This document shows, one piece after another, positions 17,641-22,159 of a stretch of DNA of 55,071 nt. The notes beneath the pieces were generated by a model. It ran no database searches and was not told the origin of the DNA. It saw only the letters and a program-made list of their open reading frames with translations. The position numbers and the translations under genes are program-made. Origin of the DNA: Candidatus Baldrarchaeota archaeon (lineage in GTDB: Archaea; Asgardarchaeota; Baldrarchaeia; Baldrarchaeales; DXJG01); assembly GCA_030587435.1 (NCBI GenBank), contig JAUQZC010000077.1:1-55071 (forward strand). Direction: 5' to 3'. Positions within the stretch are counted from its first letter, which is position 1; the number at the start of each line of letters is the position of its first letter.

Positions 17641-17877
17641 CTCTATATTTTTCCTATGTTTAAACACAATACACAAAGATAGTTAAATTAAATAATCTTC
17701 ATTTTCTCAAGTCAGCTTCTAAAATTAACCTCTATTTCCCGTAACTCTCCTTCAAAAATATTACTAAATCTTTTCCCACGTTTTCTGACGAACTGTAGGT
17801 ACAGTTAAATAGACGTTTCACCAAATTCTAAAATAATTAACTTCACCCTAAATTCATTAGTAGGTGAGACTTTCAAA

Positions 17878-18720
17878 ATGCAAGCCTACAAAATAAGCGA
17901 AGAAGGAGAACTTGTAAGCGTACCACTTAAAGACATCGAACTAAGAAGCGACGACGTTGTCGTAATTGTTGAAGACAATAAGAAGAACATTTTCATATGG
18001 AAAGGAATAAACGCACCTGTAAGAAAAAAGTTCATTAGCGCAAGATCTGCATGGAAACTTAGAGGAGAACTCGGCCCACTATACAAAGTAGTAAGCATAG
18101 ATGAAGGAGAAGAGCCCGAAGACTTTCTTAATCTAATTAAAAGCCTAAACATATCGGTGAAAGCAACACTACCTGCCCCTGCTGAGGAAAAACCAAAAGT
18201 GGAAGCTCCACCTGCGCCAAAACCTGCCCCACCGAAGCCAAGACGAAGACCAACGATCACAGTTCCTCCTAAAGTTGGAAAACCACCAGAAGTCAAAAAA
18301 CCGACAAAAGTAGAAGTTAAAGTTGAGAAGCCACCAGAAGCTAAACCTGTTCCACCTCCACCAGTTGAGGAAATCGATGTAAGAAGTATTTTAGGTATGC
18401 TTGAAGGTCTTGATACGCCGCCAGAATATTCGAGAGAACTCTTAATCGTAGGAACACGAATTTACGCTCTAGGAGAAGTTAGAACAAAACTTTTCGGAAA
18501 AGAAAAAGTTAAACTGAGTGTTGAACTGCTTGACGCCCTACCAGAAGGACCGTACCTAGCCGAAGGATATATTCCACGAGTAATAATTAAGAACGATCAA
18601 GTTCTGGCTGTTGAACTTTTAAAGAAAACTAGAGCAACCGTTGAAGAAATCAAAAAAGAAATTAGAAAAGGACTTGAAACATACACCTCTCTAATCAGGA
18701 AGTTAGAAAAGGAGGAATAA
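17878..18720 (+). CDS. Gelsolin-like domain protein with proline-rich linker and novel C-terminal domain
   Basis: 280 residues. Residues 20-92 look like one gelsolin/villin repeat: DDVVVIVEDNKKNIFIWKG matches the D-x-hydrophobic...IYVWxG strand pattern, and the following helix (APVRKKFISARSAW) and the acidic GEEPEDFLNLI fit the usual end. Residues 100-165 form a low-complexity Pro/Lys/Glu linker with repeated PPxxKP units. Residues 165-280 are a separate alpha/beta domain of unknown family (RELLIVGTRIYALGEVRTK ... LPEGPYLAEGYIP). The ATG follows AGGTGAG. Its stop is two bases from the start of a Roadblock gene, with the GGAGG for that gene inside this one, so they are co-translated. Archaeal gelsolin-like proteins bind actin homologues in Asgards. 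Whether this one does is unknown; no actin gene is in the window. Confidence 0.75.
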   Translation: MQAYKISEEGELVSVPLKDIELRSDDVVVIVEDNKKNIFIWKGINAPVRKKFISARSAWKLRGELGPLYKVVSIDEGEEPEDFLNLIKSLNISVKATLPAPAEEKPKVEAPPAPKPAPPKPRRRPTITVPPKVGKPPEVKKPTKVEVKVEKPPEAKPVPPPPVEEIDVRSILGMLEGLDTPPEYSRELLIVGTRIYALGEVRTKLFGKEKVKLSVELLDALPEGPYLAEGYIPRVIIKNDQVLAVELLKKTRATVEEIKKEIRKGLETYTSLIRKLEKEE

Positions 18721-18722
18721 TC

Positions 18723-19088
18723 ATGACTAACGAAGAAGAACTTAAACAAATAATTAGTAAAATCCCAGAATATGCCGAGTTTGAAGCTCTTGCCGTGGTA
18801 ACAAAGGAAGGAGCAAGACAAGCTTTCTGGTCAAAAAGTGAGGTAGACCCAGACCTTCTATCAGCTATGGCTGCAACCATATTACAAACAAGCAATAAGG
18901 CAGCTAAAAAGATGGGGTTCGGAACCCTTTTCGAGGTTATTGTAAGAGGAGAAAATGGATACATGGTTCTCTCAGATGCAGGACCCTTTGTATTAATTGG
19001 CGCGGGTAGAGAAGTGACAAGCCTAGGTCTATCTATAAGAGTCCTAAGAGAGTTTGCAAGAAAAATATCAGAGAAATTCTCGGAGTAA
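18723..19088 (+). CDS. Roadblock/LC7 domain protein
   Basis: 121 residues, a single Roadblock/longin-like domain. It has the typical pattern IPEYAEFEALAVVTKEGARQAFWS, a central helix DPDLLSAMAATILQTSNKAAKKMG, then VIVRGENGYMVLSDAGPFVLIGAG and a final helix. Such proteins dimerise and serve as regulators or scaffolds of small Ras-like GTPases (MglB with MglA, or Ragulator). It lies two bases downstream of the gelsolin-like gene. No GTPase gene is next to it. I infer a shared complex with the upstream protein. Confidence 0.88.
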   Translation: MTNEEELKQIISKIPEYAEFEALAVVTKEGARQAFWSKSEVDPDLLSAMAATILQTSNKAAKKMGFGTLFEVIVRGENGYMVLSDAGPFVLIGAGREVTSLGLSIRVLREFARKISEKFSE

Positions 19089-21270: not shown

Positions 21271-21310
21271 GAAAGTTCTTAAAATATGATACATGCAAGG
21301 AGGAAAAACG

Positions 21311-22159
21311 TTGCCATACTGTCAATACTGCGGAAAAGAAGTCTATCTCCCATTTAGATGTAAATATTGTGGAGGAATATTTTGCTCAGAGCACAGACTT
21401 CCAGAAAAACATGAATGCCCCGGGTTAAAAAAGGGTATACCGCTTGATTATTCCTTACGTCGGGAAGAAATGCCCGAGTACGTAGAAACCGAAGAATATG
21501 AAATACCGGTAAAGCCAAAAAGAACACTAGAACCATGGCGACCCCTGTTTGAGATACCAAAAAAGCCTAAATTTACGTTTAGTAGAACTGAAATAATTCA
21601 CCTTACCATAGGAACAATACTTGTGGTTTTAGTGGGACTTTCATCCTTTTTTAAAACGCCAAGTGTTTTTATAAACTACCCACTATTAACATTAATGTTC
21701 TCAGTAATCTTTATTCTAATATTTTTACCCCACGAGTTAGCTCACAAATTTACTGCCCAACGTTACGGACTCTGGGCAGAATTTCGACTACTAGAGTGGG
21801 GAACAATATTAACTCTTATATCAATACTTTCACCCGCAAAAATTATAGCTCCAGGAGCAGTAATGGTACAAGAAGCCTACGACAATGAAATAACAGGAAA
21901 AATAGCATTAGCTGGGCCCTTAACCAACCTATTTATCGCAACAATACTAATATTTACATACTTCCTACTTCCTGTAACAGGAATCGTGAAAACTTTCTTA
22001 TCTATCGGCTTTTGGTTAAACATCATCTTAGGCATATTTAACATGTTGCCAATACCTCCTCTAGATGGCAGTAAAATTATGAAATGGAGCGTGGGCCTCT
22101 GGGCCTTGGTATTCTCAGTATACGTAGTCTTCTTACTGATTTACTTAATAATTCTATAA
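21311..22159 (+). CDS. AN1-type zinc finger fused to M50-family membrane protease
   Basis: About 282 residues. Residues 1-40 form an AN1 zinc finger: CQYCGKEV...FRCKYCGGIFCSEHRLPEKHECPG holds the usual Cys/His set. A linker of about 55 residues follows, then five or six membrane helices with HELAHKFTAQRYG near residue 145 and NMLPIPPLDGSK near 250, the two halves of the S2P zinc site. AN1 domains in eukaryotes work with ubiquitin and Cdc48, and the cdc48 gene is the next gene, convergent on the other strand. TTG at 21311 fits AAGGAGGAAAAACG. An ATG at 21293 lies before that site and is unlikely. Confidence 0.9.
   Translation: MPYCQYCGKEVYLPFRCKYCGGIFCSEHRLPEKHECPGLKKGIPLDYSLRREEMPEYVETEEYEIPVKPKRTLEPWRPLFEIPKKPKFTFSRTEIIHLTIGTILVVLVGLSSFFKTPSVFINYPLLTLMFSVIFILIFLPHELAHKFTAQRYGLWAEFRLLEWGTILTLISILSPAKIIAPGAVMVQEAYDNEITGKIALAGPLTNLFIATILIFTYFLLPVTGIVKTFLSIGFWLNIILGIFNMLPIPPLDGSKIMKWSVGLWALVFSVYVVFLLIYLIIL

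Follow-up and report, generated by a model that had tools for sequence, protein, structure and literature searches.

A gelsolin-domain gene coupled to a Roadblock gene in Asgard archaea: a possible link between small GTPases and actin

Several architectures of gelsolin-domain proteins have been described in Asgard archaea: ProGel of Thorarchaeota (7c2f) is one gelsolin domain alone and the 2DGels (7c2g, 7c2h, 7whf, 7whg) carry two. A further class, "1DGelX", is named in PMC9433394, the only source of this term in the literature searched; the accessible text of this paper gives nothing about region X, a Roadblock partner or gene context of 1DGelX, and the word "roadblock" is absent from its main text. 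A divergent gelsolin-like protein (cls.008013 / Lokiarch_14920) was reported in seven of the eight Asgard genomes of another study (PMC6393860, accessible part), whose main text is also devoid of the word "roadblock"; it could belong to the family analyzed here. On the GTPase side, the MglA/MglB systems of Myxococcus and Thermus associate a Roadblock regulator with a Ras-like GTPase. According to the accessible parts of two papers, operons shared by GTPase and Roadblock genes are not the rule in MK-D1 (PMC10933270, 2024), and the possibility that operons would point to the targets of the small GTPases of Loki was an outstanding question (PMC4917890, 2016 review). No report of a gelsolin–Roadblock linkage was found in the literature searched, consulted in part and with most subscription papers outside its scope, so that priority is not proven.

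The present analysis concerns a window, i.e. a whole stretch of 55,071 nucleotides from a Candidatus Baldrarchaeota archaeon, in which a preliminary description had proposed a translationally coupled pair of a gelsolin-like gene (hereafter GEL-X) and a Roadblock gene. The parts of this locus are as follows:

17862..17867, + strand: AGGTGA, ribosome site of the GEL-X gene, read from the sequence, 10 nt 5′ of the ATG at 17878
17878..18720, + strand: GEL-X gene (280 aa), encoding a single gelsolin domain, a Pro-rich linker and a C-terminal domain (ORF, structure prediction, homologues)
17878..18165, + strand: gelsolin domain of GEL-X, residues 1-96
18166..18372, + strand: linker of GEL-X, residues 97-165, 34% Pro, of low confidence over most of its length (pLDDT blocks)
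18373..18717, + strand: C-terminal domain of GEL-X, residues 166-280, a helix, five strands and a long helix (AF2, conservation)
18710..18715, + strand: AGGAGG, ribosome site of the Roadblock gene, inside the GEL-X gene, read from the sequence
18723..19088, + strand: Roadblock/LC7 gene, 121 aa (PF03259; PDB relatives 9jue, 7f8m)

The pairing of these two genes is confirmed as a genuine observation. The two ORFs (17878-18720 and 18723-19088) are separated by only two bases, a strong ribosome site (AGGAGG) lies in the final GEL-X codons, 7 nt 5′ of the Roadblock ATG, and the coupling is conserved in relatives. The 121-aa protein is a Roadblock/LC7 protein (PF03259, 34.6 bits vs a cut-off of 23). 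An Rpb6-type RNA polymerase gene precedes the pair, and a phosphodiesterase-family gene follows it in convergent orientation. The window was compared via its relatives, the nearest genome among those compared (G001) having 33% of the sampled words of the window in common. GEL-X is also encoded in three named records (two Candidatus Baldrarchaeota and one Candidatus Odinarchaeota), with 69-93% identity. Elsewhere in the window, a single protein (21293-22159, + strand) matches both an AN1-type zinc finger and an M50-type peptidase.

The N-terminal domain of GEL-X has a gelsolin fold, the nearest structure being that of Thorarchaeal ProGel bound to actin (PDB 7c2f), in agreement with the single gelsolin-like repeat initially proposed. 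The window domain scores under the Pfam PF00626 cut-off (13.2 vs 21 bits). Among four relatives, the Odinarchaeal (22.1) and f22 (21.8) proteins are over this cut-off and those of f25 (13.1) and f3 (14.3) are under it. In alignment A1 (58 rows), W41, G43, R49, F52, A55, A58 and R62 are invariant, W41 and G43 providing the WxG signature of gelsolin domains named in the accessible text of PMC9433394. In alignment A6, whose 47 rows are more diverse (L120, one of the 48 references, is absent from them), W41, A55 and R62 are almost invariant and the sole invariant residues are G43, F52, G66 and G224. The acidic residues D25/D26 of the window, which may correspond to calcium-site positions, are not retained in the Thorarchaeal rows shown of A1. 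It could be proposed that the gelsolin domain has lost actin binding and that GEL-X is a Roadblock/GTPase adaptor whose gelsolin fold binds something else. The score under the Pfam cut-off, the lone gelsolin domain carried on a linker and the four residues kept in diverse rows would fit such a loss, but W41 to R62 is among the best-conserved stretches, the nearest structure is an actin-bound one and the f3 gene cluster (see below) includes an actin-family gene; we therefore regard it as quite unlikely.

GEL-X differs from ProGel by its linker and its C-terminal domain, and from the 2DGels by the presence of only one gelsolin domain, followed by a domain without gelsolin-profile match (probability of 0.4% for the C-terminal profile vs the gelsolin profile). 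It resembles 1DGelX, as far as the class name of the latter defines it, in joining a single gelsolin domain to a non-gelsolin region. The C-terminal domain of about 115 residues announced in the preliminary description is indeed found as residues 166-280, with an AF2 fold (mean pLDDT of 85.6 over residues 159-280); comparison of the predicted domain with known structures found no PDB match. In a metagenome protein of 518 aa (P0083), the unit formed by the gelsolin and C-terminal domains is duplicated in tandem, suggesting that these domains function jointly as a single module. A conserved basic tail (KKKKLVAK-like) ends the GEL-X of L034, L054 and the Thorarchaeal proteins of A1 and is absent from most other rows shown.

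The preliminary description had made its interpretation depend, beforehand, on homologues occurring beside a Roadblock gene. They do: a Roadblock gene is located within 1.5 kb in 36 of the 83 full-length GEL-X loci, spread over 12 families (these 83 rows omit six partial gelsolin matches, L104-L108 and L128, and L058, where GEL-X is present and was missed by gene calling). A first locus set had given a Roadblock match within the fetched stretch in 24 of 41 GEL-X loci, window counted. In the genome-wide search, this distance was found in at least 99 of the 150 genomes whose best Roadblock match was listed (out of 217 with a match and 227 searched, the count being a lower bound), downstream and on the same strand in 96 of the 99, with a median gap of 97 bp between profile matches; the Roadblock profile used (A3) derives mainly from Roadblocks already next to GEL-X. 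The pairs of f24 and f21 came from later locus reading, outside the 150-genome comparison. The spacing goes from 2 bp to overlap in several families. The Roadblock gene has the opposite orientation in two of the 36 linked loci (L083, L087), and small ORFs lie between GEL-X and longer Roadblock genes in f26/f27 (L081, L083, L089). These longer proteins (L081:5936-6838, L083:6541-7395, L089:9315-10244; 284-309 aa) have long tails with a common terminal ISDKEAVLEALKVLGWEE motif.

The gene order around GEL-X is partly ancestral, since other neighbours are retained as well: a YjeF gene upstream of GEL-X in f3, f5 and f18, the Rpb6 and phosphodiesterase clusters of the window in f7, and phosphodiesterase and VWA clusters in f12. 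The order of GEL-X and Roadblock could thus be an ancestral remnant or a convenience of co-expression, devoid of functional coupling, all the more as f7 (L051) retains the Rpb6 and phosphodiesterase neighbours also found in f1 and has its best Roadblock match on another contig. However, the GEL-X–Roadblock adjacency is the broadest of all neighbour pairings seen (12 families), its spacing is from 2 bp to overlapping in several of them, and f1, f4, f8 and f10 have the pair in common with remaining close neighbours from different clusters; many flanking genes are housekeeping ones that change from family to family (Rpb6, ABC transporter, aminotransferase, tRNA synthetases). A mere remnant is consequently very improbable, and gene context strongly argues for a shared pathway of GEL-X and Roadblock. 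The interpretation first given to the pair is supported, and the two proteins would be in physical contact. In L051 (G009), Roadblock was either lost from that spot or never inserted there.

No GTPase gene was flagged in the window, where an MglA/MglB-type Roadblock–GTPase adjacency was not found. The neighbourhood comparison for GTPase or crenactin genes proposed in the preliminary description gave GTPase or actin-family neighbours in some lineages (a Ras-like GTPase gene no further than 1.5 kb away in 15 of 83 full GEL-X loci; actin in 13 of 17 testable f3 loci); neither a Roadblock nor a Ras-like GTPase gene was found within 1.5 kb in 32 of the 83. The loci read of f6, f7, f12, f13, f16, f25 and f29 showed no partner, and neither did the second paralogue of f10. 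As controls, a GTPase was found within 1.5 kb of 10 of the 198 genes that these stretches contain beyond a distance of 4 kb from GEL-X, and of 78 of 665 genes of at least 150 aa in all fetched loci, many of which had been fetched for a nearby GTPase; the control counts MglA-like genes as GTPases and the GEL-X count (15/83) omits them.

Within the lineages concerned, the arrangement is conserved. The loci read of the counted types were 5 for f22, 3 for f24 and 18 for f3, i.e. some genomes of each. In f22 (5/5 loci), GEL-X, a Rab-like and an MglA-like GTPase gene follow one another, types assigned by PDB match from L079 alone (best match Rab23 for the former; MglA 6hjh, E 1.2e-19, for the latter); GEL-X and the Rab-like gene are on the same strand, from a 22-bp gap to a 4-bp overlap, with overlap in 2/5. 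A GTPase gene follows GEL-X on the same strand in all three f24 loci of that paralogue, overlaps it tail to tail in three of four f17 loci (a gene intervenes in the other one) and adjoins it on the opposite strand in f15 (two loci) and in one f3 locus (L120). These GTPases are not a single orthologous group, those of f15 and f17 forming one clade with f24 and f22 apart; the supported branches of the GEL-X tree require three or more changes of the GTPase label. The Baldrarchaeial genomes showed no clear orthologue; the nearest genomes compared have 14 (G001), 10 (G002) and 7 (G003) Ras-like matches. Overall, GTPase adjacency concerns about four lineages: it is a modest excess alone, stronger through conservation within each, and gene context moderately argues for a shared pathway of GEL-X and GTPases. 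The f22 loci resemble MglA/MglB by their MglA-like gene; the window differs in that its Roadblock gene is coupled to a gelsolin gene and not to a GTPase gene, and Baldrarchaeial G002 has a separate MglA-like gene flanked on both sides by Roadblock genes (L184:6921-9288).

The main rival explanation is a constitutive two-subunit GEL-X–Roadblock complex that acts on or tethers actin, the Roadblock dimer being a dimerising scaffold without any GTPase. The tight and widely retained coupling agrees with it, as do the absence of GTPase genes within 1.5 kb in the 36 Roadblock-linked GEL-X loci (0/36) and the ability of Roadblocks to scaffold, suggested for Thor-RB in the accessible part of PMC10933270. 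However, Ras/Rab-like GTPase genes adjoin GEL-X or a paralogue in f15, f17, f22 and f24, and we consider this complex rather unlikely, though less so than a loss of actin binding.

Actin genes were found in the neighbourhood of the pair in f3, which is probably Lokiarchaeia. In 13 of its 17 testable loci, GEL-X, Roadblock, a VWA protein gene, two smaller genes and an actin-family gene have the same orientation (L193, whose stretch stops at Roadblock, was left out; the VWA gene is missing from L192):

actin-family gene downstream of the pair: L052, L053, L067, L076, L187-L190, L192, L195-L198
no such gene downstream of the pair: L049, L050, L191, L194

The four f3 genes tested match Pfam actin with E 3.6e-43 to 1.2e-51. 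Since f3 is one lineage, this linkage counts as one association. In f17 (L074), Roadblock and a canonical actin gene lie 4.6 kb apart. Canonical actin is encoded once each in G001 (E 1.5e-137) and G002 (E 4.6e-138), in the latter on the contig that also carries the pair, about 130 kb off; none was found in G003 (84% complete). Gene context moderately argues for a shared pathway of GEL-X and actin. The protein of 664-758 aa encoded directly after the pair in six f3 loci (L049, L050, L052, L053, L067, L076) has a VWA domain in the three tested, with a weak CDC48-N match under cut-off in two.

From the computed gelsolin fold, Roadblock family, conserved gene coupling and GTPase or actin neighbours of relatives, we infer that GEL-X binds actin, contacts Roadblock and is under GTPase control, the least strained reading being that GEL-X relays the signal of a small GTPase to actin and has Roadblock as its partner on the GTPase side. 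GEL-X and Roadblock would thus be one co-made module linking an Asgard small-GTPase switch to actin (probability of about 0.52). The two proteins would be produced together and work as one; the gelsolin domain would bind actin like ProGel, the Pro-rich linker would supply reach, and the C-terminal domain might dock onto the Roadblock dimer and/or a Ras/Rab/MglA-like GTPase. The Roadblock dimer would read or reset the GTPase, and actin would be capped, severed or sequestered wherever the GTPase state is right. A gelsolin gene tied to Roadblock, GTPases and actin in different lineages provides concrete, testable partners for Asgard GTPases, the targets of many of which are, to our knowledge, largely unknown.

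More tentatively, and with somewhat more doubt than confidence, this pair could be an ancestral pan-Asgard module for actin control by Ras/Rab/MglA-like GTPases, predating eukaryotes, in which a gelsolin has a new GTPase- or Roadblock-docking domain; if true, small GTPases would have been tied to the actin cytoskeleton before eukaryotes arose. Of the 227 Asgard genomes, 221 match the GEL-X profile at E 1e-3, weak matches being possibly other gelsolins. At E 1e-20, a hand count of the 227 genomes gave 192 with both proteins, 17 with neither, 11 with GEL-X alone and seven with Roadblock alone; this co-occurrence is supporting evidence only, because incomplete genomes lose neighbour genes jointly. 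Neither was found at this threshold in f9 (one genome), f14 (two), f19 (one) and five of six f16 genomes, and the presence of actin in genomes of f9, f14, f19 and several f16 lacking both counts against a GTPase–actin module. In favour of such a module, actin is over the cut-off in 39 of 43 genomes, Ras-like GTPases are found in 43/43 and MglA-like GTPases in 25/25; 38 of the 43 genomes have seven or more Ras-type matches, with a range of 7 to 65 per genome among these 38. Odinarchaeum yellowstonii (G007), which we take to be the same organism as Odin LCB_4, encodes a GEL-X over the Pfam gelsolin cut-off (22.1 vs 21 bits). This gelsolin-domain gene contrasts with the absence of gelsolin reported for Odin LCB_4 in the accessible part of PMC8813620. 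In one genome without full GEL-X match (G033, L181), an actin gene is directly followed by an MglA-like GTPase gene.
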